Part shown: one piece after another, positions 13,710-64,000 of the stretch
Layout of the letters: each line of letters begins with the position of its first letter
Position numbering within the stretch: the stretch's first letter is position 1
Assembly (NCBI RefSeq): GCF_031880315.1
Contig: NZ_CP134771.1
Span: 1,550,001 to 1,614,000 of the forward strand
DNA length: 64,000 bases
Reading direction: 5' to 3'
From: Pseudomonas baltica
GTDB lineage: Bacteria > Pseudomonadota > Gammaproteobacteria > Pseudomonadales > Pseudomonadaceae
Position numbers and translations under genes: made by a program
Notes under the pieces: model-generated
What the model saw: the letters and a program-made list of their open reading frames with translations, nothing else
Database searches by the model: none
What the model was told of the DNA's origin: nothing

Positions 13710-13727
13710 TTTGTCATACAGCAGCGA

Positions 13728-45289: not shown

Positions 45290-46474
45290 ATGACCACACC
45301 TTCTTTTCGCTTCGCCTTGAAACCGGTTTCAGTCTGCCTTCTGGCCCTGTTTGCGGCGCACTCTGCCTTCGCTGCCGACTGGGTGGTTTCCTCGAACGAC
45401 GGCAAGTACCAGCGCGCTCAAGGCCTCGACACCTACCCCGCCAACCCTGTCCCGGACACCCTTACGGTGCTGGATGCCAGCGTCTTCCCACCCAAGGTCA
45501 ACCAGACCGTCGAGATCGAAAACGGTATTCAAGGCCCACCCCAGGCCGCTGCCATCAGCCCGGACGGCAAACTGGCGCTGATCGCTGCGCCCACCCGCTA
45601 TGACCAGGCGAACAAAAAGCTGTTGATGGACACTTTCCTGCAAGTGGTCGACCTCTCCGCCAAACCTGCCAAGGTCACCCACATCGAACTCGGCAGCCAT
45701 CCGCAAGCCGTCGCGTTTGACCGTAGCGGCACCTGGGGCCTGGTGACCTGCGTGGACGGCAGCGTGCGGCCGCTGCGTATCGAAGGGCAGCAGGTGACAC
45801 TGCTCGACCCCATCAACATCAGCAGCAAACGCCTGGCCGGCGTAGTGTTCACCCACGATGGCCAGCACGCGCTGGCCGCCATGCGTGACGAACAAGGCGT
45901 CGCGGTGCTGGACCTCAAGGACGGCAAATGGGTCGACAGCGGCGACCGGGTCAGCACCGGTGTGGCGCCGTACACCGTCGATGCCTCCAGCGATGGCCAC
46001 TGGGCCGTGGTCAGCAACGTCGGCCTCGCCGGCCTGGCTTACAAAGGGCGCTTGGCGGCGGACGTGGACAGCGTGACCCTGATCGACGTGTCCAAGGCCC
46101 CATTCCGCGCGGTGCAGCACCTCACCGTACCGGCCACCCCCGAAGGCGTGGCAATCTCCCCCGACGGCAAATGGATCGCGGCCCAATCGATCGACGGCTC
46201 CAACCTCACCCCCGACAACCCCGGCGCCCGCCCCCACGGCCTCGTAACCCTGTTCGCGATCAAGAACGGCAAGGCCACGCAGGTGTCGCAAGTGGCCGAT
46301 GGTGTCGCAGCACAGGGCGTCGTTTTCAGCGCCGACAGCAAGCACGTCATCGTGCAGTTCAACGTCGAACACCAGTTGGGGCTGTACAGCATCGAAGGGC
46401 AGAAACTGGTGGATACCGGCAAGCGCATCCCGGTCGCTGGCGGCCCCTCCTCACTGCGCAGCACCCCTCGCTGA
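45290..46474 (+). CDS. Exported beta-propeller (YncE/lactonase-like) protein
   Basis: A periplasmic protein of 394 residues. A signal peptide (about 1-28, ending AHSAFAADW) precedes repeated blades of the type AAAISPDGKLALIAAP, VAFDRSGTWGLVTCVDG, VVFTHDGQHALAAMRDEQ, VDASSDGHWAVVSN, VAISPDGKWIAAQS and VVFSADSKHVIVQFN, about six to seven blades. No catalytic residues can be assigned; binding or lactonase function is possible. I start at ATG 45290, directly before the signal peptide. Confidence 0.87.
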   Translation: MTTPSFRFALKPVSVCLLALFAAHSAFAADWVVSSNDGKYQRAQGLDTYPANPVPDTLTVLDASVFPPKVNQTVEIENGIQGPPQAAAISPDGKLALIAAPTRYDQANKKLLMDTFLQVVDLSAKPAKVTHIELGSHPQAVAFDRSGTWGLVTCVDGSVRPLRIEGQQVTLLDPINISSKRLAGVVFTHDGQHALAAMRDEQGVAVLDLKDGKWVDSGDRVSTGVAPYTVDASSDGHWAVVSNVGLAGLAYKGRLAADVDSVTLIDVSKAPFRAVQHLTVPATPEGVAISPDGKWIAAQSIDGSNLTPDNPGARPHGLVTLFAIKNGKATQVSQVADGVAAQGVVFSADSKHVIVQFNVEHQLGLYSIEGQKLVDTGKRIPVAGGPSSLRSTPR

Positions 46475-46564
46475 AATCCCTGTAGCGAGAGGGATTTTCC
46501 CCGACAGCGTCGTGTCAGAACACCATCCGTGGCTGACACACCGAATCGGCGCCAAGCCCCTTCG

Positions 46565-47449
46565 CTATAGCTGCGCGCGTTGCAAATCCTCCAGCAGCCC
46601 CGCCCCTGTCGGGTCCCAGCCCAACTCGGCGCGGGTCTTGGCGCTCGTGGCCTTCAAGTCCTTGTCCACGAACGTCGCCAACCAGCCAAAATGCCCAACG
46701 GCTTCTTCTGCGGATAACGCCACCAACGGCACGTCCAGGCGCTGTGCCACGGTCTGGGCGATGCTTTTGAAACTCACGTCGACCTCGGCCGAAGCGTGAT
46801 AGCGCATGCCCGCCGTGCCCTTCTCCAGCACCAGGCGATACAAGCGTGCGGTGTCTGCGGCATGGGCCGCCGACCAGCTGTTCAGGCCCTCGCCGACATA
46901 AGCGCAGCGGCCGGTGCGCTGGGCGTGGGCGATGAGATAACTCACCAGCCCCTGCTTCAGAGTGTCGTGAATCTGCGTCAACCGTATCACCCTGACGTCA
47001 ACGCCACGCTGTGACAACTCGCGCCCGGCCAGCTCCGAGGCCACGCGCGGATTGGGGTGCTCGGGGTCGAAGTGGTCTTCGATCGCCGCCTGTCCGGGAC
47101 CTGGCGAACCCGCAGCAGCGCCAGTAGTGATGATCAACGGCCGCTCGGAACCCTCCAGCGCCGCGCCCAGGGCGATGATCGCGCGGTAGTCCTTCTGGCA
47201 GTTGTCGGCGAAGTGGGTGAAGTCATGATCGAACGCCGTATGGATCACCGCCTCACAAGCCGCCGCCCCCCGTTGCAGGCCCGGCAGGTCCTCGATATCG
47301 CCATACAGCACCTCGGCCCCCAGCGCCTTGAGCGCCTGCGCGCCCGCATCCGAGCGAGTCAGGCCCAGCACTCGGTGGCCGGCGTCGATCAACTCGGCCG
47401 CCACCCGGGAACCGATAAAACCTGTAGCACCCGTAAGAAATACACGCAT
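46565..47449 (-). CDS. SDR/NAD-dependent epimerase-like protein
   Basis: An atypical/extended SDR of 294 residues. VFLTGATGFIGSRVAAELIDAGH at the N-terminus binds NAD(P), and HTAFDHDF follows near residue 72. The extended-SDR YxxxK active site is not obvious: the region where it should lie reads RVASELAGRELSQRG, so it may be a non-catalytic or atypical (NmrA-like) member. It diverges from the XRE/MmyB-type gene, which probably regulates it. Confidence 0.85.
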   Translation of the reverse strand: MRVFLTGATGFIGSRVAAELIDAGHRVLGLTRSDAGAQALKALGAEVLYGDIEDLPGLQRGAAACEAVIHTAFDHDFTHFADNCQKDYRAIIALGAALEGSERPLIITTGAAAGSPGPGQAAIEDHFDPEHPNPRVASELAGRELSQRGVDVRVIRLTQIHDTLKQGLVSYLIAHAQRTGRCAYVGEGLNSWSAAHAADTARLYRLVLEKGTAGMRYHASAEVDVSFKSIAQTVAQRLDVPLVALSAEEAVGHFGWLATFVDKDLKATSAKTRAELGWDPTGAGLLEDLQRAQL

Positions 47450-47497
47450 GATCCTGTCCCCTGTCGTTGATATGGCAGCAGCCTGCGCTTAGTCTCT

Positions 47498-47544
47498 ATC
47501 CTGTAAAAGTAGGGACGTTATCAGGGTATACGCACTAACAGGAT
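47498..47544. promoter_or_regulatory. Candidate operator between SDR and MmyB-type regulator genes
   Basis: ATCCTGT (47498-47504) and ACAGGAT (47538-47544) form an inverted repeat with 33 bases between arms, in the 99-base divergent promoter region. Confidence 0.4.
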
Positions 47545-47548
47545 CAAC

Positions 47549-48385
47549 ATGCCGGATCAGCTCGCGAACCCCCTTGGGGTCTACCTCAAAGATTGCCGCA
47601 GCCGCCTCGACCCGGCCGCCTTCGGCCTGCCTGCAACGCGCCGGCGCACGCCCGGCCTGCGCCGTGAAGAAGTCGCCCAGCGCGCCAATATCAGCGCCAC
47701 CTGGTACACCTGGCTGGAACAGGGCCGCGGCGGCGCGCCCTCCGCGCAGGTGCTCAATCGCATCGCCCAAGGCTTGCTGATGACCGAACCGGAGCGCGAG
47801 CATCTGTTCATGCTCGCCTTCGGCCATCTACCCGAAGTCGTCTACAAAGCCCCGGACGGCGTGACGCCGCGCTTGCAACGCCTGCTCGACAGCTTCGAGT
47901 CCAGCCCGGTGATCATCAAGACGGCCACTTGGGACGTCCTGGCGTGGAACCGCGCCGCGACCGTGGTCTTTACCGACTACGGGCAGCTGCCGGTGGCGCA
48001 GCGCAACATCTTGCGGCTGATGTTCTGTAACCCGCGTATGCGCGCCAAGCAGGACGACTGGGACGACATCGCGCGCTTCGTGGTGGCGGCGTTCAGGGCC
48101 GATGCGGCGCGGGCCGGGGCAACCTTGCAAGTGAACAAGCTGGTGGATGAACTGTGCGCCGCCAGCGACCACTTCGCCCGGTTGTGGCGAGATAACGATG
48201 TGCGTGTGCACGGTGAAGGGACCAAGAAGCTGCATCACCCGGTGCTGGGGTTGATCGAGTTGGAGTATTCGGGGTTTGCCGTGGATGGGCGGCCGGATTT
48301 GGGGATGATTGTTTATAACCCGGTGTCGGCGGCGGATGCGGGGCGGATAAAGGCGTTGATCGGCAACATGGATGCACCTGGCTGA
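47549..48385 (+). CDS. XRE regulator with MmyB-like ligand-binding domain
   Basis: A 278-residue regulator. The N-terminal XRE helix-turn-helix (TPGLRREEVAQRANISATWYTWLEQGRG, about 34-61) is followed by the MmyB-like PAS-type domain (about 100-270) with the diagnostic DVLAWNRAATVVFTDY and KKLHHPVLGLIELEYSGFAVDG. In actinomycetes MmyB-like domains bind fatty-acid ligands. Genes of this type usually diverge from a dehydrogenase they repress, as here. Confidence 0.92.
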   Translation: MPDQLANPLGVYLKDCRSRLDPAAFGLPATRRRTPGLRREEVAQRANISATWYTWLEQGRGGAPSAQVLNRIAQGLLMTEPEREHLFMLAFGHLPEVVYKAPDGVTPRLQRLLDSFESSPVIIKTATWDVLAWNRAATVVFTDYGQLPVAQRNILRLMFCNPRMRAKQDDWDDIARFVVAAFRADAARAGATLQVNKLVDELCAASDHFARLWRDNDVRVHGEGTKKLHHPVLGLIELEYSGFAVDGRPDLGMIVYNPVSAADAGRIKALIGNMDAPG

Positions 48386-48459
48386 CGCGATACCAGCACC
48401 TCCCCCGCAGGGAAGGCGCCGCGCCGGAACCGCCGAAAAAATGCGTCGCGTGATAGACG

Positions 48460-49656
48460 CTACTTGCGAGCGATCACTCGTGCGACGATCGGATCATCGT
48501 CACCGTGCTTGGCCAGTCCATCACGCTCGATGCAGTAGTCAACCGTGAACCCGATCGCTACGAGCCGTTTGCAAAAATCGGCAACATTGATAAAGCGCCG
48601 GTAGTGGTCGGTCACCCGCTCATTCTCACCGACCTCGATCCCTTCTTGCATCAGGGCGTCCTTGTCGGTACGGAACTCCAGATAGAGCTTGCCCCCGGCT
48701 TTCAATATTTTGTAGGCATGACCCAGCACGTTGCCCTCGTCGTCGAGCGACATAGCATGCATGACGAATCGCCCATACACCGCATCGACCACTGTCGGCA
48801 GTCCGCTTACATCGCCCGCAAAATCTCCTTCGACGAAATCAATATTTAGGATCTGTTCGTCTTTCGCCCGCTGCCTGTTGATGTTGATCGCGACGGCAGA
48901 CTGATCAATGGCAGTGACCTGGAATTTTTTCGAGAAATAAAAGGCATCCCGACCGTTCCCGCAGCCGAATTCCAACAAGTGGCAATCGTTACTGAAAAAG
49001 TTTTCAGCACAAAAAATCGCGAACGAAGACGGCGGGATCGGTGCGCCGCGCTTTTGATAGTAGGCATCCCAATACCTGGCCCTGTCCTGATAAACGGCCG
49101 GCACGGGTATTTGCTTGCGCTGGCGAAGCTGCACCGCCTGCCGAAAATGCCGAACGATTTCTCCCGCCGCCATTTGCGGGGTCGTGTCACCATAATTCTT
49201 GAGGATGAGATCGGGGTTTTCGGGCTCTTCGAATCCAGCGGGCGTGGGCGATATGTTCTGCTTGGCCTGGGCACGGTAGATGCCTTTGGGGTCGCGCTCG
49301 GCCCTGATATCCAGTGGCACGTCGAGGTAGGCTTCGACGTAGAGATCATTGGATAAACGGTTTTTGACACGCACCGACTCGAACATCGCGACGGTCGCGA
49401 TGACCACGGTAATGCCGTTCTCGCTAACGCGCTTGCACAGCCTCGAATAGACATAGGCCAAGCGTTTACGCTCGTCCAGCTCATGGCCGAATTTTTCACC
49501 GAGGATGCTGCGCAGGTCGTCGCCATCCAGCAACAACACAGGCAGCCCCTCCTCTCTGAGCGCCTGACTGACGATTTGCGCAACCGTCGTCTTGCCAGCA
49601 CCGGAGTAGCCAGTGATCCAGATCAGTCCGCCGGTTTGCATCAGCTCACTACTCAT
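48460..49656 (-). CDS. APS-kinase-like P-loop kinase fused to SAM methyltransferase
   Basis: A two-domain protein of 398 residues. Residues about 8-180 resemble adenylylsulfate kinase: P-loop GYSGAGKTT (16-24), DGDDLR (44-49) and EEPENPDLILKN near 144-155. Residues about 195-398 are a class I SAM methyltransferase, with YWDAYYQKRG, then motif I LLEFGCGNGRD near 230 and YGRFVMHAMSLDD. No sulfate adenylyltransferase is nearby, so sulfate activation is unlikely. It is 28 bases downstream of a TagF-like transferase gene, which suggests phosphorylation and methylation of a polysaccharide or its precursor. Compare WbdD, an unrelated kinase-methyltransferase that caps E. coli O-antigen. A later ATG (residue 6) is possible. 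Confidence 0.85.
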   Translation of the reverse strand: MSSELMQTGGLIWITGYSGAGKTTVAQIVSQALREEGLPVLLLDGDDLRSILGEKFGHELDERKRLAYVYSRLCKRVSENGITVVIATVAMFESVRVKNRLSNDLYVEAYLDVPLDIRAERDPKGIYRAQAKQNISPTPAGFEEPENPDLILKNYGDTTPQMAAGEIVRHFRQAVQLRQRKQIPVPAVYQDRARYWDAYYQKRGAPIPPSSFAIFCAENFFSNDCHLLEFGCGNGRDAFYFSKKFQVTAIDQSAVAININRQRAKDEQILNIDFVEGDFAGDVSGLPTVVDAVYGRFVMHAMSLDDEGNVLGHAYKILKAGGKLYLEFRTDKDALMQEGIEVGENERVTDHYRRFINVADFCKRLVAIGFTVDYCIERDGLAKHGDDDPIVARVIARK

Positions 49657-49684
49657 TTTTCAGGCCCGTTCAAAAAGCAGCGGT

Positions 49685-50947
49685 TTAAAGTGATTCAAGA
49701 TACTTGGCAACCCGGGCGGCGTTACGACCTCGGGGCGAGCCAAAGTACTGTTGAAAGAGGTGTTCGATTGCAGCGTCATTACGTTGCATGAATGCTGGCG
49801 AAGACAGCGCCTCGGGCAACTGCTCGACAGTATCGGGCGTATACACCGGCAGCGATTTTTTCAGTTCGAGCACCGAAGAGCCAACATTCATCGGCGACTC
49901 GTCTCCTCCTGGCACATCCAGCAGCACCGTATTCTTGCCCAGGAACACCGCAGAGAACGGTGTGCCGCCGTAGTCAGCCAGCACCAGATCCGCAGCGCCA
50001 TACAGCTGATTCATATTACGGGTAGAGGTACGATCGATTTTAAAATCGCAGGCTTCCAGTGCCGCAATGTATTCCCGCTCCTGCACGAACGAGAGCGGGT
50101 GAGGCCTGACGATGATATTGACCTGGTCGTGCAATCGCGCGATCGCATGCGCATACACCGGGATGGAAGAGCTTTCGCCTCCCAATGTCGGCATCCACAA
50201 CAAGGTCTTTTTGCCTGGAGTCAGGTCAAACTCCTTGCTGATGCTGGCCACATCAAGATCTGCCTCGAAATACTCGTCATAACGCGGATAGCCCATGACG
50301 AATACCTCGCCTGCAAACCGCTCCTTTATGATCCGCTCGTCATTCACGCCATGGCACAGGAAGATATCGTAGATCTCGTTCCAGTCCATCAAACTCCAGG
50401 CGTCGCTGAGATCGGCCCCGTACATGTAGCGGATCTGCTTTCTGCCCACTTGCAGGGGTAGCAGCGTGTCGATATCCACCCCGTAATGCCACCGGGCTCG
50501 ACGCCCCAGCGCGATGAGGATTCGATTCCACAGCTTTTTGTAGCGATCGTGTCTTTGTTCGGGTTTGCGAGTCTTGCTACCGCCCGAGATAGGATGATTA
50601 CTGACGGAATAGTCGAACCTGATGCCGCTGTCTATCACCTGCTCTATATCAAGCACCTGATAGCCTCGCGCTTGGACATGCTTGAAAAATGCAGGGATGC
50701 CTTCTTTCTGTTGGCCGTTCTGATCCAGATAAAAATATTGCGTCAGGACGATGGAAAACTGCGACTTGCCCAAGGCCTGCCAGACACTTTCATAATGATT
50801 GAGCATCATTGGCTCATGCAGCAGAAAGGCCATTTTTTTGGTAGGGCACAAATACTTGGCATTGGATGATCGTTGGCCAGCCCTGCTCATAAAACTCCTT
50901 AGCGGCTGAAGAAAACTATTCAGCATCCTGACTTCATTGCTAATCAT
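49685..50947 (-). CDS. CDP-glycerol glycerophosphotransferase-like (TagF-type) transferase
   Basis: A 420-residue GT-B-type protein. The C-terminal half carries the family motifs VMGYPRYDEYF (about 229-239), LLWMPTLGGESS (about 257-268), IIVRPHPLSF and ADLVLADYGGTPFSAVFLGKNTVLLD (about 337-362). These are the positions where teichoic-acid polymerases and capsule polyol-phosphate transferases bind the CDP-polyol donor. No signal peptide; membrane-associated cytoplasmic action is likely. It is the second gene of a three-gene minus-strand unit. The donor is unknown. The start is uncertain: ATG 50947 or the ATG seven codons in. Confidence 0.82.
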   Translation of the reverse strand: MISNEVRMLNSFLQPLRSFMSRAGQRSSNAKYLCPTKKMAFLLHEPMMLNHYESVWQALGKSQFSIVLTQYFYLDQNGQQKEGIPAFFKHVQARGYQVLDIEQVIDSGIRFDYSVSNHPISGGSKTRKPEQRHDRYKKLWNRILIALGRRARWHYGVDIDTLLPLQVGRKQIRYMYGADLSDAWSLMDWNEIYDIFLCHGVNDERIIKERFAGEVFVMGYPRYDEYFEADLDVASISKEFDLTPGKKTLLWMPTLGGESSSIPVYAHAIARLHDQVNIIVRPHPLSFVQEREYIAALEACDFKIDRTSTRNMNQLYGAADLVLADYGGTPFSAVFLGKNTVLLDVPGGDESPMNVGSSVLELKKSLPVYTPDTVEQLPEALSSPAFMQRNDAAIEHLFQQYFGSPRGRNAARVAKYLESL

Positions 50948-51031
50948 GCTAGCAGCTCTGAACAGGCAGGTCGCGCCACCGACGCGCAGTTAAACGGTCG
51001 ATTGGCGCCAGGCATGGATCGCTGACTGAGC

Positions 51032-51493
51032 CTACTTCAGATACCGGGTGACTTTAGCCGGGTTACCGACTACGACGGCGTAGTCTGGGACATCCCGCGT
51101 GACCACGGCCCCCGCGCCCACCATCGCGCCCTGGCCGACAGTGATGCCTGGCAGCAACGTAGCATTGGCGCCGATGCTTGCCCCCGTCCGCACGGTAATG
51201 CCTTCGAAAGCATCGGGGTACACCTTCGACCGCGGCATTCTATCGTTGGTGAAGGTCGCGTTCGGACCGATGAACACATTGTCTTCAAGACGTGTCCCCG
51301 CCCACAGGTAGACGCCACTTTTGAGGGTAACGTTGTGACCGATCACCACATCGTTCTCTACGTAAGTATGCGCGCAGAGGTTGCAGTTTTCGCCGATGAC
51401 GGCCCCCTCGAGAATGACCGCGAACTGCCACACGCGGGTCCCGGCACCGATGGAAGCACTGGCGACGTCAGCTAGTTTATGGATCATGGGCAT
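51032..51493 (-). CDS. Left-handed beta-helix N-acetyltransferase (WbpD/WlbB-like)
   Basis: A 153-residue hexapeptide-repeat acetyltransferase of the sugar-nucleotide type. Repeats run from residue 12 to about 140 ([41 protein letters not shown]). [10 protein letters not shown] near residue 82 holds the region conserved in 3-amino-sugar N-acetyltransferases such as WbpD, WlbB and FdtC, and [10 protein letters not shown] ends the helix. It probably N-acetylates an amino sugar of a surface polysaccharide. GAGGTG precedes the ATG. It is first in a unit with the TagF-like and kinase-methyltransferase genes. Confidence 0.87.
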
Positions 51494-51551
51494 TGCTCGT
51501 TCACCTCAGGAACAGGACGTTTGCAGTAGTGTACGCGCTCATGCAGCGGGC

Positions 51552-52430
51552 TCATTGCACCCGCCCCTCGAAGTGTTTTACGAAGGCTGATGCCGCCGGG
51601 CTCAGGCCCTGCTCCGCGCGAGTGATCAGGCCAATCTCGCGGTTCATGTGCGGCCCGTCGATCACCCGGCACGACACCCCGACCTGCCCTTGCGCCGCCG
51701 ATTCCGGCAGCAGACTGATGCCCTGCCCCTGCTGCACCAAGGCCAGCACCGTAGACATGTAATTGGCCTCGGCACGGGCGATCAGCCGCAAGCCGTGGTC
51801 GGCGAATACGCGTTCGACCTGCTCACGCACGCTGCTGTCGCGGCCGGTCAGGATCATCGGCTGGCCGCTCAGATCGGCCAGCGTCAGCGGCTGCCTGCGC
51901 GCCAATGGGTGATCATCGCGAACACACACGCACAACCGGTCCATGAGCAAGAATCGAAAGTCCAGACCGCCACCCTTGCCCCGCCCTCCAAGGCCGAACT
52001 CCACGTCACCGTTGCGCACCAAGTCGTCGATACGGTGCGCCACCACATCACGCAGGCGTATTTCCACACCTGGATACTGCTGCTGAAACTCACCCATCAC
52101 CCTGGGCAACACCCCCGAACACAACGACGGTAACGCGGCCAGTTCCACCACTCCACGGCGCAAGCCTGCCAGGTCGTGGCTTTGCTCGACAATATTGTCG
52201 AGGTCCATCAGCAGTTTTTCCATGGGGGCCAGATTCTGTCGCCCGGCGGGCGTCAGCGCCAAGTGCCGCGGGCCACGATCGAGCAAAGTGATGCCCAACC
52301 AGGTTTCCAACTGCTGCACCTGCACGGTCAGGGCCGAAGGCGACAGGTGCAGCTGGGTGGCGGCCTTGGCAAAGTTGCCAGCATGGGCCACGGCGATAAA
52401 GGCACGGATGTGCTGAAGGGCGTTCTTCAT
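51552..52430 (-). CDS. LysR family regulator divergent from CitMHS cassette
   Basis: A 292-residue LysR protein with N-terminal HTH (HIRAFIAVAHAGNFAKAATQLH, then LSPSALTVQVQQLETWLG) and effector domain (RRGVVELAALPSLCSGVLPRVM onward). It diverges from the CitMHS-AtuA genes with a 125-base gap, the usual layout for a LysR activator and its target, so it probably responds to the substrate of that cassette. Confidence 0.92.
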   Translation of the reverse strand: MKNALQHIRAFIAVAHAGNFAKAATQLHLSPSALTVQVQQLETWLGITLLDRGPRHLALTPAGRQNLAPMEKLLMDLDNIVEQSHDLAGLRRGVVELAALPSLCSGVLPRVMGEFQQQYPGVEIRLRDVVAHRIDDLVRNGDVEFGLGGRGKGGGLDFRFLLMDRLCVCVRDDHPLARRQPLTLADLSGQPMILTGRDSSVREQVERVFADHGLRLIARAEANYMSTVLALVQQGQGISLLPESAAQGQVGVSCRVIDGPHMNREIGLITRAEQGLSPAASAFVKHFEGRVQ

Positions 52431-52555
52431 TCTGTTTTACCGAACGTGACCACAGGTATATTTCAATTTACACCGAGCGCCGCATCTTTCGATACTCACC
52501 AAACAACAACAAAACTCGCTACGCCCATGCCGGCGTGGCTACGCGGAGAGCCGCT

Positions 52556-53851
52556 ATGCTCGCAATACTCGGTGTCATCACCATTCTGTGCCTGCTCGTA
52601 AGTGTCATGAGCAAACGCCTTTCTCCTCTCGTCGCCCTGATCGCCTTGCCCATCGTCGCCGCCTTGATTGGCGGATTCGGGCTGCAGACCAGCACCTTCA
52701 TCATCGCAGGCATCAAGAACGTCGCCCCGGTGGTGGGCATGTTCGTCTTCGCCATCCTCTATTTCGGCGTGATGACCGACGCCGGCATGCTCGACCCGAT
52801 CATCGACCGCATCCTGCGCACCGTCGGCACCCGCCCCACGCGCATCGTTTTCGGCACCGCACTGCTGGCCTTGCTGGTGCATCTGGACGGTTCGGGCGCG
52901 GTGACCTTCCTGGTCACCGTGCCAGCCATGCTGCCGCTGTACACCCGCCTGGGCATGGATCGGCGGATCCTCGCCTGCGTGGCTGCGATGGCCGCCGGGG
53001 TCAACTTTCTGCCGTGGACCGGCCCGGTGCTGCGCTCATCCGCCGCCTTGCATGTGCCTGTCAGCCAGTTGTTTCAGCCGCTGATCATCGTGCAACTGGT
53101 GGGCCTGGCATTCGTGTTTGCCTGCGCTTGGGGCCTGGGCCTGCGCGAAGAACGCCGCCTGGGCCTGGGCGCTGGCAGTCTGGGCAGTGAGTCGACGCCC
53201 AAACGCGTGCTCGGCGTCGATGACGAAGCCCTGCGTCGGCCGCGGCTGTTCTTGCCGAACCTGTTGCTGACCGTGGTGGTGATGGCGGTAATGATCGCCG
53301 GCTGGGTCGACCCCGTGGTGATGTTCATGCTCGGCACCGTGGTCGCGCTGTGCCTCAACTACCCCAACGTCGACGCCCAGCGCGCCCGTATCGACGCCCA
53401 TGCAAAAACCGCCTTGACCATGGCCAGCATCCTCCTTGCTGCCGGGGTGTTCACCGGCATCATGCAAGGCTCTGGCATGCTCAAGGCCATGGCCGAAGTC
53501 GCGGTCGCGGGCATCCCTGCTGGCCATGGCAAGCTCATCCCGGCTGTGGTCGGCTTTTTGTCCATGCCGCTGAGCCTGCTGTTCGACCCAGACTCCTACT
53601 ACTTCGGGGTCATGCCGGTGATCGCCGAAGTCGGCCGCTCGCTGGGCGTCGACCCGTTGCAGGTCGCCCAGGCCTCACTGCTGGGCGTGCACACCACAGG
53701 CTTCCCGGTCAGCCCGCTGACCCCGGCGACCTTCCTGTTGGTGGGCCTGTGCAAAGTCGAACTGGCCGACCACCAGCGCTTCACCATCCCCTTTCTGTTC
53801 GCCGCCTCGGTGTTGATGACCTTCACCGCCCTGCTGCTGGGAGTGTTTTGA
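52556..53851 (+). CDS. CitMHS-type citrate/metal-citrate transporter
   Basis: An inner-membrane secondary transporter of 431 residues with about twelve segments. MLAILGVITILCLLVSVMSKRLSPLVALIALPI at the N-terminus, VHLDGSGAVTFLVTVPAMLPLYTRLGMD (about 110-137) and the C-terminal GVHTTGFPVSPLTPATFLLVGL (about 380-401) match the CitMHS family (citrate-Mg:H+ or citrate-Ca:H+). I start at ATG 52556 with GGAGAG upstream. The next gene starts immediately after its stop (TGA-ATG). Confidence 0.9.
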   Translation: MLAILGVITILCLLVSVMSKRLSPLVALIALPIVAALIGGFGLQTSTFIIAGIKNVAPVVGMFVFAILYFGVMTDAGMLDPIIDRILRTVGTRPTRIVFGTALLALLVHLDGSGAVTFLVTVPAMLPLYTRLGMDRRILACVAAMAAGVNFLPWTGPVLRSSAALHVPVSQLFQPLIIVQLVGLAFVFACAWGLGLREERRLGLGAGSLGSESTPKRVLGVDDEALRRPRLFLPNLLLTVVVMAVMIAGWVDPVVMFMLGTVVALCLNYPNVDAQRARIDAHAKTALTMASILLAAGVFTGIMQGSGMLKAMAEVAVAGIPAGHGKLIPAVVGFLSMPLSLLFDPDSYYFGVMPVIAEVGRSLGVDPLQVAQASLLGVHTTGFPVSPLTPATFLLVGLCKVELADHQRFTIPFLFAASVLMTFTALLLGVF

Positions 53852-55201: not shown

Positions 55202-55527
55202 TGGCTACCGTAATGCTCAGGACATTGGCGCACTCGCGCACGGGGGACAAGGGCGATACCTCGAATATTTCAGTGATTGCTTATCGGCAGGAGGATTATG
55301 CGGTGTTGCGCGCGGAGGTGACGGTGGAGCGGGTTCAGGCGTTTTTTGCTGAATTGCTGCCGGCGGGAGCGGTGGTGACGCGGTATGAGCTGCCGGGGTT
55401 GGGGGCGCTGAATTTTGTGCTGCCGGGGATTTTGCGCGGTGGCGTGACCAGGGCGTTGGCCCTGGATGCGCATGGGAAGTGTTTGGGGGCGGGGTTGTTG
55501 GTGATGGGGATTGAGGTGGTGGATTGA
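55201..55527 (+). CDS. Small AtuA-related protein
   Basis: A 108-residue protein matching the C-terminal extension found on larger AtuA homologues (RTLAHSRTGDKGDTSNISVIAY, then ELPGLGALNFVLPGILRGGVTRALALDAHGK). In this genome the AtuA unit is split into two genes whose junction reads TGATG. A GTG one codon before the ATG is possible. The two products probably act as a complex. Function unknown. Confidence 0.87.
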   Translation: MATVMLRTLAHSRTGDKGDTSNISVIAYRQEDYAVLRAEVTVERVQAFFAELLPAGAVVTRYELPGLGALNFVLPGILRGGVTRALALDAHGKCLGAGLLVMGIEVVD

Positions 55528-55606
55528 ATCTGCCGGGCCAGATCGGGCTGATAAATCCAGCCCCCACCACCCTGTAGATTCGGCCACGTAAGTACTGAGC
55601 CCGCTA

Positions 55607-57666: not shown

Positions 57667-58911
57667 ATGAAATCAATTATCCCTGTCGAGAAAAACCCTT
57701 TTTACATTGTCACTCCACCTTACACTAAAGTATCCGCTGGCGTAACCTCACTTCATCTACTTTGCCACTACCTCAATTTGGCAGGCGAATCTGCCTATAT
57801 TGTTCAGTACCCTGCCGCGCAAGTGCCGATAAGAAGTTTGCCGGCCTACGTGACGCTGCAAGGTCAGACCGAGTATCCGGGCGGGATGATTGTCCCACCG
57901 TTGACCCTGGATATTATCGAGCATTACGACCGCCGCAAGTTGACGCCCATTGTTGTTTACCCCGAAGTTTTTGACAATCCACTCCGCGCCAAATTTTTTG
58001 GCCGCTACATTCTGAACTACCCTGGCAAGCTGAACACAAAATACACCGAAGCCGCTGACTTTGGCGTTGCTTACGCAAAGACGCTGGCGGATTTTTGTGC
58101 GACCGAGTATCCAGATCACGCACGTATCGAAGACATCTTGTTTGTCCCTACGGTTGACTTGGAATTTTGGCGCGCTCCGGATCGCGCTGAAAAGAGATCA
58201 GGAAGCTGCTTTTATGCAGGCAAACTTAAAGGGATCCATGGTGAGACGCCCGAGAACGTCCCTGCTGACTCCATCGAGATCTTGCGCAGCGACAAGATGA
58301 CCACCGAGGAAGTGCGCGATCTGTTCTGGCGTACCGAGGTTTTCTATTGCTACGAGGATACCGCCCTCGCAATCGAGGCGATATTGTGCGGCTGTCCAAC
58401 AGTGTTCGTGCGTAACAAGCACTTTGCCGGCCCACCATTAGGCGCCAATGAAACAGGGAAGTCTGGATGGTGTATGTCAGATGATGAGGGCGGCCTGGAG
58501 CAAGCCAAGGCAACAATCGGCCAATTTGCCGAACACATCAATAGCTACCTGCATGATATACCATCGCAGATTGCGAAACTCGGCCTCAAATGGCGAGCGC
58601 TAGCGGTAGAGCAGCCGTATGCAGGGACCATCAAACTGCCGCTAGAGCCCAGGATTGTACTTTTCGATCAACCACTACCTCCGTCATTCTCGCTGACAGG
58701 TGCAGATGAGTTTGATACAGGAGTTATCACTCAAAAAGTTCTCGATAGGGCCCCAACTATCGTTCGTTTCACCCGAATATTGATAATTGATACCTTGAAA
58801 ACACGAGGGCTCAGCGGAATAGCCCGTCGTGCTGTCGTAGGCTTGAAAAATCACGGGCCCATAGGGTTTTTGCGTATCCTCTCTGGCCGTCCGCCAAAAG
58901 GGGAGGAGTGA
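57667..58911 (+). CDS. Probable glycosyltransferase of the polysaccharide island
   Basis: A 414-residue soluble protein that looks like a GT-B glycosyltransferase. The N-terminal part (FYIVTPPYTKVSAGVTSLHLLCHYLNLAGESAYIV) is a Rossmann-like start. The middle has FYAGKLKGIHG (about 179-189), MTTEEVRDLFWRTEVFYCYEDTALAIEAILCGCPTVFV (about 214-251), where the family's donor-binding EAxxCGxPV pattern is recognisable. Codon use is AT-rich. The stop overlaps the next start as TGATG. Acceptor and donor are unknown. Confidence 0.75.
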   Translation: MKSIIPVEKNPFYIVTPPYTKVSAGVTSLHLLCHYLNLAGESAYIVQYPAAQVPIRSLPAYVTLQGQTEYPGGMIVPPLTLDIIEHYDRRKLTPIVVYPEVFDNPLRAKFFGRYILNYPGKLNTKYTEAADFGVAYAKTLADFCATEYPDHARIEDILFVPTVDLEFWRAPDRAEKRSGSCFYAGKLKGIHGETPENVPADSIEILRSDKMTTEEVRDLFWRTEVFYCYEDTALAIEAILCGCPTVFVRNKHFAGPPLGANETGKSGWCMSDDEGGLEQAKATIGQFAEHINSYLHDIPSQIAKLGLKWRALAVEQPYAGTIKLPLEPRIVLFDQPLPPSFSLTGADEFDTGVITQKVLDRAPTIVRFTRILIIDTLKTRGLSGIARRAVVGLKNHGPIGFLRILSGRPPKGEE

Positions 58912-60146
58912 TGGCTTACAAAATCACGATCTTGATACCTAATTATAATCGGGTCGACGCACTCGCTCGCCTGCTGGCAAGCACATTCGCCTCAATCGAG
59001 AAAGCAAACGCAGCAGAGATGTGTTCTGTATTGGTGGTCGATGATTTCTCGTCTGATGATTTATCCAAAATCGTTGAAAAATACAGCCATCATCCAAATT
59101 TTAAATTTTTACTTCAGGACAAAAAGTGCGGAAATGCTGAAACTGCATTCCTAACCTCTCTCCATCATGTGCAAAGCGAGTATTTCTGGCTTTTGGGTAA
59201 CGATGATCAAATTTCCATCGATGGTGTTGGACACGTATTATCTCTCATCGCCGATTCGAACCTAGGCTTTATCTTACTGAACCCAAGAATCAACAAGGAA
59301 AAAATCGCGCAAAGTTTTGTGCCACTGCACACGACAAGCCCTACTGTTTACTATGAACGAGGCAGGGACCTTTTTTATGACTTTGGATTCGTCACCTCTA
59401 CGACGACCTTCCCCTGCTTGTTAGGAAAGACAGCGCCAGTCGTTGATTATCATAGACTGCACGACCTGAATAAGTTTGCTACTGTCTACTCTCATACCTT
59501 TACACTGTTCGGCGCCTTTAAAGATCTACCTGCTTTATTTGTAAGCACACCTATCGTCAGTTTCACGCTGAATGAGCGAAAGGAAGAGTTTCACAAGCTG
59601 CTGAAGCAAGCCCCAGCGGGAATCGCATTTTATCATCAGTCATTAGGATTGATACGCCTGATTCGCGAAGCGGCACGAACGACGGAAATCTCGATTGCGG
59701 AGATCGGTTCCGCACTTGAAGATGAGGTTGACAAGGATAAAATGCAAGTTTATCCGACCTCTCTAGCTTACTTTGTGGGCTTTTTCTTTCTGGAGCAACT
59801 TTGTCGCGAACAGCACAATGTCATGTATCCACGTCCAGAGTTCGGCCATTTGGTTCGCTCCGAAACCAATGAAATAATGGGTATTATCGAGAGCTTTGGG
59901 GATATCGATCTGCATGACGCATGTTCAAAGGCACTTGCAGCATTCAACTGGCAAACCCCTCCCGCCAGTTGGAAACTTCACTTTCTCCGTTTGACACAAT
60001 CGAAGCTGAGAGAACTGGCTCATCTACGTGGTCAAGACAATACTGTTATAGACCCGAAAGACCGCCCACTAAAAATTGCCACTGGCAACTACCACGCATT
60101 GAAGCTACGAGGTGTTCAATCGACAAATGACGGTAGACCACTTTAA
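58911..60146 (+). CDS. Family 2 glycosyltransferase
   Basis: A 411-residue protein whose N-terminal 250 residues are a GT-A fold: ITILIPNYNRVDALARLLAS (about 4-23), VLVVDDFSSDDLSKIVEKY (about 39-57) and YFWLLGNDDQISIDG near 87-101, with the metal-binding DD in GNDDQ. The C-terminal 150 residues are helical and unassigned. The ATG is preceded by GGGGAGGAGTG and overlaps the upstream stop (TGATG), so it is coupled to the previous glycosyltransferase. AT-rich, as its neighbours. Confidence 0.85.
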   Translation: MAYKITILIPNYNRVDALARLLASTFASIEKANAAEMCSVLVVDDFSSDDLSKIVEKYSHHPNFKFLLQDKKCGNAETAFLTSLHHVQSEYFWLLGNDDQISIDGVGHVLSLIADSNLGFILLNPRINKEKIAQSFVPLHTTSPTVYYERGRDLFYDFGFVTSTTTFPCLLGKTAPVVDYHRLHDLNKFATVYSHTFTLFGAFKDLPALFVSTPIVSFTLNERKEEFHKLLKQAPAGIAFYHQSLGLIRLIREAARTTEISIAEIGSALEDEVDKDKMQVYPTSLAYFVGFFFLEQLCREQHNVMYPRPEFGHLVRSETNEIMGIIESFGDIDLHDACSKALAAFNWQTPPASWKLHFLRLTQSKLRELAHLRGQDNTVIDPKDRPLKIATGNYHALKLRGVQSTNDGRPL

Positions 60147-60164
60147 AAGAGGACTATGGGCTTC

Positions 60165-60196
60165 GGGCTTTTATACTCGTTTTGCGTATAAAAGCC
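60165..60196 (+). terminator. Hairpin after the glycosyltransferase pair
   Basis: GGGCTTTTATAC (60165-60176) and GTATAAAAGCCC (60185-60196) are a perfect 12-bp inverted repeat with an 8-base loop, 19 bases past the stop. No T-run follows on either strand, so termination is likely but unproven; it would also lie at the end of the convergent wbpM transcript. Confidence 0.5.
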
Positions 60197-60295
60197 CAAG
60201 ACGTGGGATGCCAGTCAGAACAAATGCGCTTCAAAACTTTCAAAGGGTAACAATGCGCTTGCTTTCCCTATTCGCGCAACTTCGTTCGTCTATAG

Positions 60296-62290
60296 TTATG
60301 GCTCGCGCCGCTGCTGCAGATGCTTCCAGTCGACTATATCGCAGGCGGGCGAATAACCACTGACCAACTGGCACATCACGTGGCGCCCGCGCGCAAAATC
60401 ATCAACCTTCAAAGCATCGAGTAACGACACTAATCCAGGTTTCAAGACTTCCCATGCCAGAAAATCTTCATTGGCACTCATGATCATCGGATGGTTAGTC
60501 GCGCAGACGTTATCGCCAATCAACAACTCTTCATACAGCTTTTCCCCTGGCCGCAGCCCGGTAAACTCGATGGCGATATCGCCTTGAGGATTTCTCTCCG
60601 AGCGTACCGAGAGCCCGGACAAATGCACCATTTTTTCTGCCAGTTCGATAATGCGGACCGGTTCGCCCATATCCAGCACGAACACATCCCCGCCCTTGCC
60701 CATCGAGCCGGCTTGGATGACCAACTGCGCCGCCTCGGGAATGGTCATGAAATAGCGGGTGACGTTCGGATGGGTCACGGTCAACGGCCCACCCTTCTTG
60801 ATCTGCTTGTGGAACAACGGAATTACCGAGCCTGAGGAGCCCAGCACGTTACCAAAACGCACCATGGTGAAACGAGTACGGTTGACGTGGGAAACCCGTG
60901 CGGAGTCCTGGAACAATACCGGAGCAACCTCTTTGCTCAGCGCCTGCAAGACCATCTCGGCCAGGCGCTTGGTGCTGCCCATCACGTTGGTAGGACGGAC
61001 TGCCTTGTCGGTCGAGATGAGTACGAAATTCGCGACGTTGGCCCGTACCGCCGCTTGCGCGGTGTTCAACGTACCCATGACGTTATTGAGCACGCCCTCA
61101 CCAATATTGTGCTCGACGATGGGCACGTGCTTGTAGGCGGCGGCGTGATAGACAGTATCGACGCTCCAGGTAAGCATTACATCCAGTAGCTTGTCCGCGT
61201 GGCGCACGGAGCCCAGGATAGGCAACACCTTAACCCCCCCACCCAAGCGATCGGCCAAGGCTTCAAGCTCCTGATGGATGACGTACAGGTTGTATTCACT
61301 GTGCTCGAACAGCAGCAACTGCTTAGGCTGCAGCGCCACGATCTGGCGGCACAGCTCTGAACCGATCGAGCCACCGGCACCGGTGACCAGCACCGTCTTG
61401 CCGGCGATACAGTGAGACAGCAGTTCCTGATCAGGGCTGACCGAATCGCGGCCCAGCAGGTCGGCAATGTCGACCTCTTGCAGGTCTTGGACGGTGACCC
61501 GGCCGGTGGCCAGGTCGGAGAAGTTCGGGACGCTGCGCACGTGCAGCGGAAAACTCTCGAGCAATCCAAGAATCTCCCGACGCCGGGAGCGACTGACCGA
61601 AGGTAACGCTAAAAGAATTTCTGTGGCTCCGGTCTCGCGGATCATTCGCTCGATTTGCTTGGGCGGGTAGACCAACAGGCCGGCGATGATGCGATTGCCG
61701 ATGCTGCCATCGTCATCGATGAACGCTACCGGGCGCATTTGACGACCCAGGCGCAGCGCCGCCACCAATTGGTTGCCGGCGTCTCCGGCACCATATATGG
61801 CCACACGGGTCAGGCCTTCATCACGACGCAGCAGGGGGGAACTCTGCATGCCCATGAACCAGTCGCCATGGAAGTATTGGCGCATGACCAGCCGCAAGCC
61901 ACCGACCAGGACCAGGCTCAACCACCAGTAGTTGAACACGATCGAACGTGGAACCAGCACTTGATGGTTGCTGTACCAGTAAACGATCAAAGCGAGTACC
62001 AAGGAAGCCAAGGTCACTGCCTTGCAGATGGCAATCAAAGCATCATTGCCGAAATAGCGCATGACCGCGCGGTACATGCCAACTCGGATGAAAATGGGCA
62101 ACGATACCAAAGGCGCGGCGACGAACAGCCAGCTATGCCGGACCATTGGATTGTGGGCGTCCTCGAAGCCCAGGCGAACCACAAAGGCCAGGTACAAGGA
62201 CAGCCATAGCACCAATACGTCCACACCCAGTTGCAGTGTGCGTTTGGTACGGCGTGACAGGCCCAACAGTTTCATTTTGAAGGCGTTCAT
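60296..62290 (-). CDS. wbpM: UDP-GlcNAc 4,6-dehydratase, WbpM family
   Basis: A 664-residue inner-membrane nucleotide-sugar dehydratase of the large WbpM/FlaA1 class, needed for B-band/O-antigen sugars such as QuiNAc or FucNAc. Four membrane segments occupy residues about 15-150. A first Rossmann domain (VAIYGAGDAGNQLVAAL, about 170) and the catalytic SDR domain (VLVTGAGGSIGSELCRQI, about 304) follow. The active site reads STDKAVRPTNVMGSTKR near 445, with Met in place of the usual SDR Tyr as in WbpM. GLRPGEKLYEELL near 580 is the family signature. In P. aeruginosa wbpM closes the O-antigen locus beside the uvrB/aminotransferase block. Confidence 0.96.
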   Translation of the reverse strand: MNAFKMKLLGLSRRTKRTLQLGVDVLVLWLSLYLAFVVRLGFEDAHNPMVRHSWLFVAAPLVSLPIFIRVGMYRAVMRYFGNDALIAICKAVTLASLVLALIVYWYSNHQVLVPRSIVFNYWWLSLVLVGGLRLVMRQYFHGDWFMGMQSSPLLRRDEGLTRVAIYGAGDAGNQLVAALRLGRQMRPVAFIDDDGSIGNRIIAGLLVYPPKQIERMIRETGATEILLALPSVSRSRRREILGLLESFPLHVRSVPNFSDLATGRVTVQDLQEVDIADLLGRDSVSPDQELLSHCIAGKTVLVTGAGGSIGSELCRQIVALQPKQLLLFEHSEYNLYVIHQELEALADRLGGGVKVLPILGSVRHADKLLDVMLTWSVDTVYHAAAYKHVPIVEHNIGEGVLNNVMGTLNTAQAAVRANVANFVLISTDKAVRPTNVMGSTKRLAEMVLQALSKEVAPVLFQDSARVSHVNRTRFTMVRFGNVLGSSGSVIPLFHKQIKKGGPLTVTHPNVTRYFMTIPEAAQLVIQAGSMGKGGDVFVLDMGEPVRIIELAEKMVHLSGLSVRSERNPQGDIAIEFTGLRPGEKLYEELLIGDNVCATNHPMIMSANEDFLAWEVLKPGLVSLLDALKVDDFARGRHVMCQLVSGYSPACDIVDWKHLQQRREP

Positions 62291-62331
62291 CGGTACTCGA
62301 CCTCGCCACCTTTGATGGGACTGGCGGTCAC

Positions 62332-62421
62332 CTTGCGAACGTTCGCAAGATTGAAAAATGAGGCCGCGAGACTAGCTCGCGGCGGGTGTTTCAATGATCG
62401 ACCCGGCAGGGTGCCGGGTCG
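62332..62421. promoter_or_regulatory. Three palindromes between the ThDP gene and wbpM
   Basis: CTTGCGAACGTTCGCAAG (62332-62349) is a perfect 18-bp palindrome 42 bases upstream of wbpM. CCGCGAG-ACTAG-CTCGCGG (62364-62382) and CGACCCGGCA-GGG-TGCCGGGTCG (62399-62421) are perfect hairpins. The last may end the upstream transcript, but no T-run follows. The first could be an operator or leader hairpin. Confidence 0.55.
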
Positions 62422-62429
62422 TTCAGTTA

Positions 62430-64000
62430 TTACAGATAACGTGCAACCTTCCCGACCACCGCTTCAGGCAAGTCCGGAGACATCTGATGCAGCGGATTGG
62501 AAGCCATACCGGTCGGTGTGACACGGCTGGTAATTTTCGGGAAGTAGGTCTGCTCTGGGTCGACCTTGACGATAAAGGCACCCGGGCCATCACTCTCGAG
62601 CAGCGCGGCAAAGTCAGTCGAGCTCTCGAAGCCCGGCTCTACACGCACTACTGGGATACCGTAGGCCGCGAACAGCGCTGCCCAGTTCGGCAGGCCGAGG
62701 CCAGTCTCGATATCGCAACCCACATAGCGGCCACCGAAGTAGCTGCGCTGGGTGGAGCGGATGGACGCGTAACCCGAGTCGTCGAAGATGAAGATCTTCA
62801 AATTCAGGCGATTGACGCCCACAGTACCGATTTCCTGCAGGTTCTGGGCGAAACCGCCGTCACCTTCAACCAGGATGACCCGCTGCTCAGGGTTGGCAAA
62901 CGCGGCGCCGATGGCTCCGCTAAGGCCGTAACCCATGGACGCCAAACCCTTGTTGGTAACCACGCGCTGCCCAGCCTTTTGGGCGAACACTTGCATCATC
63001 ACGGTAAAAGCCCCACCGCTGCTGCATGGCACGACCACGTCGTCGGCCTTGAGCAAGGTGGACAGGTGCTCGACCAGCTTGAAAGGCGACTGGTAGCCGT
63101 CGTGAGTGACGTTATCTTCGATCAGTGGCACGGATGCTTGCACTTCACGGCAGTAGCCATGCCACTCGCTCCACTGGCCCTCGATCTTGCCAGCCAGGGT
63201 CTTGAGCCAAGGATTGACGTCAGCGCAGATCGGCACATCGACGGTAGGATGGCCCTTGGTCAGCTCGGCAACGTCAACATCGACTTGCACGACTTTGCCG
63301 CCACGGCCAAATTCCTGCCAGTTGAAGCCTGTCTGTTGCAGACCCAGGCGCGTACCCAAAGCCAGCACCACATCTGCCTGTTGCAGCAACAGGTTGGCGT
63401 AACGCTGGCCCCAGGTGTTCGGCCTGCCGAAATAGCACGGGTGATCGGCAGGGATGCGATCCAGGCCGTTCCAGGTAGTGAACAGCGGCAGCGAGTGCTG
63501 TTCGGCGACTGCGGTCAGCGCCGCGGCAGCTTCGCGGCTGACGCCGCCACCGATCAGTACCGCCGGGCGCTGGGCGCTACGCAGTAATGCCAGGACTTCC
63601 TCCAGGGAGTTGTCAGCGGTACGCACGCCAGCAGGTATTGGAAGCGCTTTGCCGGTGATAGCAGCGGCTGGCGTAGTCGGCAGCTCTTCGGCGCTCATCA
63701 GGCGGCCTTGTACGTCCAGCGGCAGCTCGATGAACACCGGGCCTGGGCGACCACGCTCGGTGGCAGCGCAAAGGGCCAGGAAAGCTTCGCGGGACACCTG
63801 AGTGTCCAGGCGCTCTGCGGCCACTGTGATCGGGCGAGCAATGGCAATGCCGTCGATTTCCTGGATGCCGCGCTGGCGCAGCTGGCCATGGCTGAGGTCA
63901 GCGGTCTTGACCTGACCACCAATCACCAGCAACTCACGGCTTTCGAGGAACGCGCCACTCAGGGCGGTCACGATGTTGGTAAGGCCAGGGCCGGCCGTGA
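62430..64000 (-). CDS. Thiamine diphosphate-dependent enzyme (acetolactate synthase-like), partial
   Basis: The 5' end lies beyond the right edge; 522 codons to the stop are visible, starting within TAGPGLTNIVTALSGAF, a motif about 75 residues into such enzymes. The central domain (about 130-270 of the visible part) and the C-terminal ThDP domain are complete. The metal motif is GDGGFAQNLQEIG; the second ligand position, usually NN, reads DDSGYASIRSTQ. The catalytic glutamate would be outside the window. Its position beside wbpM, not an ilvH-type subunit gene, suggests a role in an O-antigen sugar or acyl group and not branched-chain amino acid synthesis. Confidence 0.85.
   Translation of the reverse strand, partial: TAGPGLTNIVTALSGAFLESRELLVIGGQVKTADLSHGQLRQRGIQEIDGIAIARPITVAAERLDTQVSREAFLALCAATERGRPGPVFIELPLDVQGRLMSAEELPTTPAAAITGKALPIPAGVRTADNSLEEVLALLRSAQRPAVLIGGGVSREAAAALTAVAEQHSLPLFTTWNGLDRIPADHPCYFGRPNTWGQRYANLLLQQADVVLALGTRLGLQQTGFNWQEFGRGGKVVQVDVDVAELTKGHPTVDVPICADVNPWLKTLAGKIEGQWSEWHGYCREVQASVPLIEDNVTHDGYQSPFKLVEHLSTLLKADDVVVPCSSGGAFTVMMQVFAQKAGQRVVTNKGLASMGYGLSGAIGAAFANPEQRVILVEGDGGFAQNLQEIGTVGVNRLNLKIFIFDDSGYASIRSTQRSYFGGRYVGCDIETGLGLPNWAALFAAYGIPVVRVEPGFESSTDFAALLESDGPGAFIVKVDPEQTYFPKITSRVTPTGMASNPLHQMSPDLPEAVVGKVARYL

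Follow-up and report, generated by a model that had tools for sequence, protein, structure and literature searches.

A kinase-methyltransferase fusion with a TagF-like partner in Pseudomonas baltica: a candidate unit for phosphate-type decoration of O-antigen

Within the genome of Pseudomonas baltica (G000, a single contig of 6.63 Mb), three neighbouring genes on the minus strand encode a kinase-methyltransferase fusion, here named KinMT, a TagF-like transferase and an acyltransferase. They lie in a window of 64,000 nucleotides (contig NZ_CP134771.1, positions 1,550,001 to 1,614,000). All three open reading frames (ORFs) are intact at the coordinates given in an original prediction made from the DNA letters alone, and the domains named there agree with Pfam. 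KinMT (48460..49656, minus strand, 398 aa) combines a kinase resembling those for adenosine 5'-phosphosulfate (APS) with a class I S-adenosylmethionine (SAM) methyltransferase, as judged from the ORF, Pfam, the occurrence of the same fusion in database proteins and the ratio of nonsynonymous to synonymous substitution rates (dN/dS). Its kinase domain covers residues 10-152 (49201..49629, minus strand; APS_kinase, PF01583, 7.8e-28) and was assessed further by a tree and a residue table. The methyltransferase domain, residues 187-398 (48463..49098, minus strand), carries a conserved HYRRF motif and was assessed by Pfam (Methyltransf_25 at residues 228-322, 7.3e-14), alignments and viral neighbourhoods.

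A gap of 28 bp separates KinMT from the TagF-like gene (49685..50947, minus strand, 420 aa), a predicted phospho-group transferase of the CDP-alcohol type (CDP, cytidine diphosphate), on the evidence of PF04464, profiles of solved structures and co-occurrence. Its Glyphos_transf domain (PF04464, 1.3e-12) covers residues 211-416 (49700..50317, minus strand) and scored 47.8 bits against a curated cut-off of 22.1. After a further 84 bp, the third gene (51032..51493, minus strand, 153 aa) encodes a hexapeptide-repeat acyltransferase of the FdtC/NeuD-like kind (Hexapep, 1.1e-23). It had been called an amino-sugar acetyltransferase; the hexapeptide acyltransferase stands, while the amino-sugar type is plausible, the NCBIfam model for NeuD/PglB/VioB having reached 105.9 against a cut-off of 160.8.

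The GC content is 50-60% across the trio and about 59-66% in its flanks (46000 to 53000), which suggests a horizontal origin of the trio. A comparison with the copy in a bog genome (L004) gave KinMT a dN/dS of 0.085 (0.088 for the kinase half, 0.073 for the methyltransferase half), indicating purifying selection. The TagF-like gene gave 0.144, and for the acyltransferase gene dS was saturated. From their spacing and conserved order, the three genes are likely co-transcribed. A scan for sigma-70-like promoters around the trio gave no site. Three terminator-like sites were found there against 2.8 expected by chance; a weak stem of this type at the KinMT stop codon (48443..48460, minus strand) is among sites whose number in the region is at chance level.

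A protein search with KinMT returned 1076 matches at E <= 0.001. Among the best 120, the top 92 each span 98-100% of the query, and many are full-length homologues with identities of 41-95%. As the fusion recurs in database proteins, its architecture is not due to chance. KinMT is a clear protein family, yet a rare one in sequenced species: it was found in two of 398 Pseudomonas genomes (the window's own included), in one of 369 genomes of Gammaproteobacteria (again the window's own) and, by a methyltransferase-profile scan of the phylum, in two of 398 genomes, namely the window's own and G771. With so few KinMT genomes in the census, most of the gene-context evidence rests on few genomes. The six records from a plasmid search with KinMT contained no fusion, and of the 41 loci that the fusion alignment picked up in viruses, the best-matching ones align with the methyltransferase part only. 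The automatic names of homologues include adenylyl-sulfate kinase, a label that conceals the family.

The kinase domains were compared in a tree of 57 rows. KinMT rows were taken from an alignment (A1) that combines the window's protein with 33 homologues out of the 120 listed, the four close copies P0001, P0002, P0005 and P0009 being left out; other kinases came from 27 of 32 loci scanned, L130, L131, L132, L135 and L136 having none. All 30 KinMT kinases fall into a single clade (100/99). It lies within the kinases of phosphoramidate-type clusters (98/88, then 94/79), and a split with support of 100/99 sets it apart from 11 APS-kinase rows. These rows comprise the kinase-only loci L005-L014 and L002, of which at least L005, L007, L011, L012 and L013 lie near recognisable sulfate genes by reading, the rest being assumed to be APS kinases. 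The residues which we take to contact APS are F75, N83 and F165 in fungal numbering. F75 was present in 1/30 KinMT rows against 9/11 APS rows and N83 in 0/30 against 10/11; at the F165 equivalent, where the alignment is gappy, no F occurred among the 23 of 30 KinMT rows shown. Residues of the phosphoramidate branch are largely present, namely F92 (27/30), N99 (27/30) and R100 (28/30). By these sequence criteria, the KinMT kinase is assigned to the phosphoramidate-cluster branch, apart from the APS kinases.

In Campylobacter, Cj1415-1418 make CDP-phosphoramidate 3'-phosphate from glutamine, ATP and CTP, and the characterised kin of the KinMT-type kinase act on nucleotides, which is also established knowledge (both in the parts of PMC11800397 available to us). 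A plasmid search found kinases 51% identical to the KinMT kinase domain in Azospirillum (L019, L020), next to a methyltransferase, a phosphoenolpyruvate (PEP)-utilizing enzyme, a gamma-glutamyl hydrolase and a phosphocholine-cytidylyltransferase-like gene. The kinase of L023 is 42% identical and has the same neighbours, with the PEP-utilizing gene about 6 kb away. These three loci match the Cj1415-1418 set in gene make-up. With this and the tree, the Campylobacter precedent invoked for the kinase in the original prediction holds. The L019 gene at 10030-12570 encodes a kinase fused to the end of a stretch of some 640 aa, in which sulfotransferase-like motifs were seen by eye and Pfam had no match.

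Relatives of P. baltica have phosphoramidate-type genes as well. Of 398 Pseudomonas genomes sampled, 35 have a glutamine-kinase-like gene, among them G014, the source of the query. Eighteen phosphoramidate-type loci were covered (L089-L098, L129-L136). Ten come from genomes without KinMT that have a TagF relative, as described below, and eight from the other 25 glutamine-kinase-like loci. In the 13 that were read gene by gene (all except L092, L095, L096, L098 and L132), the glutamine-kinase-like gene is accompanied by amidohydrolase- and cytidylyltransferase-like genes, often by an APS-kinase-like kinase, and by varied transferases. The latter are a CDP-alcohol phosphotransferase in L131 and L135, another TagF-like protein in L130 and L136, and a protein without Pfam match in L129 and L134; several CDP-alcohol-type transferases thus accompany this gene set. 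A methyltransferase of another kind stands beside the kinase in L129, L133 and L134 (domain checked in L129 and L133).

The genes upstream in this route were not found in KinMT genomes. The glutamine-kinase-like gene (Cj1418-like) was absent from G000 and G336 in the same search that gave 35/398 positive genomes; with an Azospirillum query, G000, G336 and G766 were negative in a search that had no positive control. For the cytidylyltransferase (Cj1416-like), a Pseudomonas query gave only generic matches in these three genomes (1.7e-5 to 1e-4), against 1.5e-58 or better in the controls G014 (the query's own), G353 and G203. The amidohydrolase (Cj1417-like) was found with a Pseudomonas query in none of the three KinMT genomes and in all three controls, one being the query's own. 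A complete phosphoramidate pathway elsewhere in the KinMT genomes was rejected, as neither the Azospirillum nor the Pseudomonas queries found one. The late part of the route would then be present without the part that makes the phosphorus-nitrogen (P-N) bond.

The solved relatives of the TagF-like protein by profile are TagF (3l7j, 4.2e-9) and TarL (8va1, 4e-6). It has CHG at residues 198-200, just before the Glyphos_transf domain, and PHP (RPHP) at 282-284 inside it; we take HG and PHP to be the two conserved His motifs of PF04464. A near-full-length gene of this type (E <= 1e-20) occurs in only two of the 398 Pseudomonas genomes, both with KinMT. In 25 of the 120 listed KinMT clusters, the longest contig is identical in size to that of a listed TagF-like cluster (n=120), whereas 1000 jitter trials averaged 0.7 and never exceeded 5; this implies that both genes are often on one contig.

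Ten other genomes of the 398 have a TagF relative that is 33-37% identical across the C-terminal part. In all ten, which lack KinMT, a glutamine-kinase-like gene lies 1.9-4.5 kb away, compared with a base rate of 35/398 (naive P 8e-12, uncorrected for kinship). The kinase is present in all ten loci and directly beside the TagF relative in the 6/6 read gene by gene. In the Pfam-checked L090, kinase and TagF relative are followed by methyltransferase, nucleoside triphosphate (NTP)-transferase, Peptidase_C26 and PEP-utilizing genes. Acyltransferases 60-66% identical to that of the window were found in 6 of the 18 Pseudomonas phosphoramidate-type loci scanned, i.e. in five of the ten TagF-linked loci and in L133.

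The role of METHYLTRANSFERASE, the methyltransferase of KinMT, is hinted at by stand-alone relatives in viral contigs (L036, L038, L164-L208 and L218; the locus of phage S-CAM7 is L024). LicD was fused, adjacent or within 0.5 kb in 20 of 24 distinct viral members scoring at least 90 bits and in none of 44 control loci, i.e. other viral loci from the same scans judged by LicD motif; not all of the 24 are independent of one another, and at least two of them contributed to the profile. The link was seen by motif in 18 members (16 also by Pfam, L177 only via its near-copy L178, L218 without a Pfam scan) and by Pfam alone in two more, the fusions L168 and L170. Fisher's test gave 1.1e-11 like for like by motif (18/24 vs 0/44) and 1.3e-13 with the Pfam additions counted. 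Fusions of methyltransferase and LicD were also found in L173 and L184. The members without LicD are L175, L180, L194 and L197, with a CDP-alcohol phosphotransferase about 1 kb from the L194 gene. In cyanophage S-CAM7, LicD adjoins the methyltransferase gene, and on a Shinella plasmid a weak LicD-plus-methyltransferase gene lies 0.5 kb further on. A plasmid search with a stand-alone methyltransferase gave no match, and a phage search with another one returned only S-CAM7 (4 records). S-CAM7 L024 5983-6552 is annotated as adenylylsulfate kinase although its KinMT match covers the methyltransferase part only, perhaps a misnomer carried over from the fusion family.

In stretches of up to 4 kb around the 24 viral members, no APS-kinase-like gene was found by motif, and no LicC-like cytidylyltransferase around 23 of them; the sole cytidylyltransferase-like match lies 2.1 kb away in L165. 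Without an adjacent LicC-like gene, a two-gene viral module must draw its donor from common metabolites. The pair of methyltransferase and LicD is likely a glycan-decorating module. CDP-linked donors serve both the TagF and the LicD family. The closest solved relatives of the methyltransferase profile are phosphoethanolamine methyltransferases (9e-23), and the HYR stretch of 5wp4 and 5wp5 aligns with the family's HYRRF. From this alignment, the HYRRF region is read as a putative pocket for a phosphate group. The position which we take to hold the catalytic Asp of these enzymes is the F of a YSRF motif here; domain 1 of 5wp5 likewise has no Asp there.

The trio is linked to surface polysaccharide by its neighbourhood, as originally suggested. 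In Pseudomonas sp. MWU16-30317 (L003) and in the bog genome, the trio's immediate neighbour is a CDP-sugar O-antigen cluster; L004, apparently contig C105 of G336, was compared by reading. The L003 cluster has RfbH, CDP-glucose 4,6-dehydratase and glucose-1-phosphate cytidylyltransferase above the cut-offs, and an acetolactate-synthase-like enzyme of the thiamine pyrophosphate (TPP) type adjoins KinMT. In the window, a surface-polysaccharide cluster starts nearby (57667..63971, no strand assigned) and continues past its end. It was recognised by glycosyltransferase-like ORFs, those at 57667 and 58908 by eye only, and includes an FnlA/PseB-like dehydratase (60296-62290) and, by its L003 counterpart, an acetolactate-synthase-like TPP enzyme (from 62430). 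A block of 7.1 kb (48458-55551) is 97% identical to L003 4106-11199 and differs in position relative to the polysaccharide cluster. Transposase-like ORFs were noticed by eye near this block in L003.

Further genes were observed in these clusters. An AroB-like phospholyase and an epimerase-like gene lie inside the CDP-sugar cluster in L003 (16356-19905, with an additional short-chain dehydrogenase/reductase and a weakly aldolase-like gene) and in L016, the own genome beyond the window (11762-13803); this group may make an unusual sugar or cyclitol. L016 15914-18109, in the polysaccharide cluster, encodes a protein of 731 aa with a GT2 domain by Pfam and, at its N-terminus, sulfotransferase-like motifs by eye that had no Pfam match.

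We consider it probable that the trio places a CDP-activated phospho-group on a surface glycan, and phosphate-type decoration, as originally predicted, is supported. The group itself may be methyl phosphate, the leading guess, added by a route of a kind undescribed so far. A nucleotide-type kinase, a CDP-alcohol-type transferase, no supply of P-N and a methyltransferase whose relatives have CDP-using partners are most simply fitted by a route via CDP-O-methyl. The trio would be an O-antigen modification unit that works donor-first. With SAM as the methyl source, the methyltransferase domain would methylate CDP at its terminal phosphate, and the resulting CDP-O-methyl would be an isostere of the Campylobacter intermediate CDP-NH2. 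The kinase domain would add a 3'-phosphate to it, as Cj1415 does to CDP-NH2, and the TagF-like enzyme would use this donor to place methyl phosphate on an O-antigen sugar, the O-antigen presumably being built from the CDP-linked sugars encoded next door. The acyltransferase may act on an amino sugar or a hydroxyl of the same glycan. Every chemical step being inferred, this exact scheme is proposed with somewhat less than even confidence. More tentatively, CDP-O-methyl might be a natural glycan-decorating donor that a single methyltransferase family supplies to two or more types of module, with the 3'-phosphate as a recognition handle like that of 3'-phosphoadenosine 5'-phosphosulfate (PAPS); the modules concerned would be KinMT with a TagF-like enzyme in bacteria and methyltransferase with LicD in phages.

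Several observations weigh against the CDP-O-methyl route. To our knowledge, CDP-O-methyl has never been reported. The kinase branch was defined by neighbourhood rows that contain no Campylobacter sequence, Cj1415 included, and N83, lost in KinMT, is retained in 10 kinases of TagF-linked clusters. Five of the 18 Pseudomonas phosphoramidate-type loci have no APS-kinase-like kinase. The His of CHG is present in KinMT-linked TagF-like proteins and missing in all five aligned TagF relatives from phosphoramidate-type loci, so that the donor handling of the latter may differ. Azospirillum queries gave weak matches in the KinMT genomes for the cytidylyltransferase (best 1e-6 to 1.8e-7) and one per genome for the amidohydrolase (1e-4, best 1.4e-4), which are read as generic relatives. 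In the window's genome, about 6 kb with unrelated genes separate the trio from the cluster's first glycosyltransferase-like ORF. The partner of KinMT in G771 (L154/L155) is not TagF-like; it is a tetratricopeptide repeat (TPR) protein that matches Sulfotransfer_3 weakly (25.4 bits, cut-off 27). Sulfotransferases take a 3'-phosphonucleotide donor. This partner fits a 3'-phospho-CDP donor, yet it warns that the transferase can vary. Finally, the likeness to phosphoethanolamine methyltransferases and the link to LicD fit a phosphocholine route equally well.

In such a phosphocholine-type route, the methyltransferase would methylate a phospho-alcohol such as phosphoethanolamine, with CDP as its carrier and a TagF-like or LicD enzyme attaching it. 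It is the best of the alternatives, though unlikely: it accounts for the best solved relatives of the methyltransferase and for its viral LicD partners, a family that transfers phosphocholine from CDP-choline (PMC10434233, as far as its accessible parts go), but it leaves the nucleotide-type kinase without a role and finds neither an adjacent LicC-like gene in the viral loci nor the catalytic Asp.

Quite unlikely is a phosphoramidate decoration in which the kinase acts on CDP-NH2, the methyltransferase adds an O-methyl and P-N comes from an unrecognised source. The kinase branch and the TagF relatives are those of phosphoramidate-type clusters, and L129, L133 and L134 have a methyltransferase beside the kinase, albeit of another kind; against this, searches with positive controls show G000 and G336 to lack all three upstream genes and G766 two of them, its glutamine kinase search being uncontrolled.

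Two further readings appear very unlikely. In the first, an acceptor-first cap, the kinase would phosphorylate the end of the glycan and the methyltransferase would methylate that phosphate. KinMT unites both activities in one protein, and the own cluster has a Wzt-like ATP-binding cassette (ABC) export ATPase (234.8 bits against a cut-off of 400). However, the TagF-like partner would have no role, and in every case known to us the kinase family acts on nucleotides. WbdD makes methyl phosphate in the acceptor-first manner, according to the part of PMC3482155 available. The second, of the same low probability, has the TagF-like enzyme transferring glycerol or ribitol phosphate, with the methyltransferase acting on the polyol or a sugar. 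TagF and TarL are indeed its solved relatives, but the kinase stays unexplained and no polyol cytidylyltransferase was seen nearby by reading. The TagD model for CDP-glycerol synthase was above its cut-off in none of the three KinMT genomes (one weak match of 42 bits each against 165.4), upon which the CDP-glycerol route was rejected; the ribitol route was not searched for. The original description of a polymerase-type partner could not be established, as single groups are also transferred by TagF-like proteins. The possibility that KinMT is an ordinary APS kinase, supplying PAPS for sulfation, was rejected as extremely improbable. PF01583, the automatic names, the motifs seen by eye in the GT2 protein of the own cluster and the weak sulfotransferase match in G771 might speak for it; its tree position and residue changes speak against it, and the genome has a separate CysNC-like kinase ORF at another place.

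Should KinMT make a methylated CDP donor, donor-first methylation of phosphate would be directly testable with one purified protein, and a confirmed CDP-O-methyl donor would raise the novelty of the system. The methyl-adding step of the Campylobacter phosphoramidate is still without an assigned enzyme. The available parts of PMC11800397 give no function for Cj1419 and Cj1420, whose knockouts showed no apparent change. A 2022 review calls the glutamine kinase specific to C. jejuni and describes such surface groups as phage receptors in Campylobacter (PMC9561416), and unmethylated phosphoramidate is known from the lipopolysaccharide (LPS) of Xanthomonas campestris and Shewanella (PMC3907429), both sources having been available in part. 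That 35 of 398 Pseudomonas genomes have a glutamine-kinase-like gene points to phosphoramidate-type decoration beyond Campylobacter. A use of related chemistry by viruses is suggested by the LicD modules of phages. Among the titles and abstract beginnings of open-licence papers in PubMed Central, where subscription papers are mostly outside, no paper on the KinMT fusion or on a methyltransferase-LicD module was found.

Among known systems, the phosphoethanolamine N-methyltransferases are the closest solved enzymes to the methyltransferase and share the aligned HYR, whereas KinMT lacks what we take to be their catalytic Asp and is fused to a kinase. LicD phosphocholine transferases resemble the system in being partners of the same methyltransferase family in viruses and in using a CDP-linked donor; they are not the transferase of the window, and their viral loci differ in having no adjacent LicC-like gene. 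The teichoic-acid transferases TagF and TarL have the PF04464 domain and its motifs in common with the transferase, which here has KinMT as its partner instead of a CDP-glycerol synthase. WbdD of E. coli O9a is similar in uniting kinase and methyltransferase in one protein, in its link to O-antigen and in its methyl phosphate product. Its methyltransferase is N-terminal, its kinase has a eukaryote-like protein-kinase fold and it acts on the glycan itself (PMC3482155, in the part available). The KinMT kinase is a P-loop PF01583 member by sequence and precedes the methyltransferase (10-152, then after 187), so the difference in fold and the kinase-first order noted originally were upheld. With fold, order and substrate all different, WbdD falls away as a precedent by descent or mechanism and is best regarded as an analogue, not a relative. 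The nearest known system, by gene make-up and family placement, is the methyl phosphoramidate route of C. jejuni (Cj1415-Cj1418 with the transferases Cj1421/Cj1422). Glutamine kinase, cytidylyltransferase and amidohydrolase were not found in KinMT genomes, the methyltransferase is fused to the kinase and the transferase is TagF-like; as three of its four defining genes fail there, the trio is not counted as a member. What it would have in common with this route is an APS-kinase-like kinase acting on a CDP-linked small group, the decoration of a surface polysaccharide and a methyl group on phosphorus.

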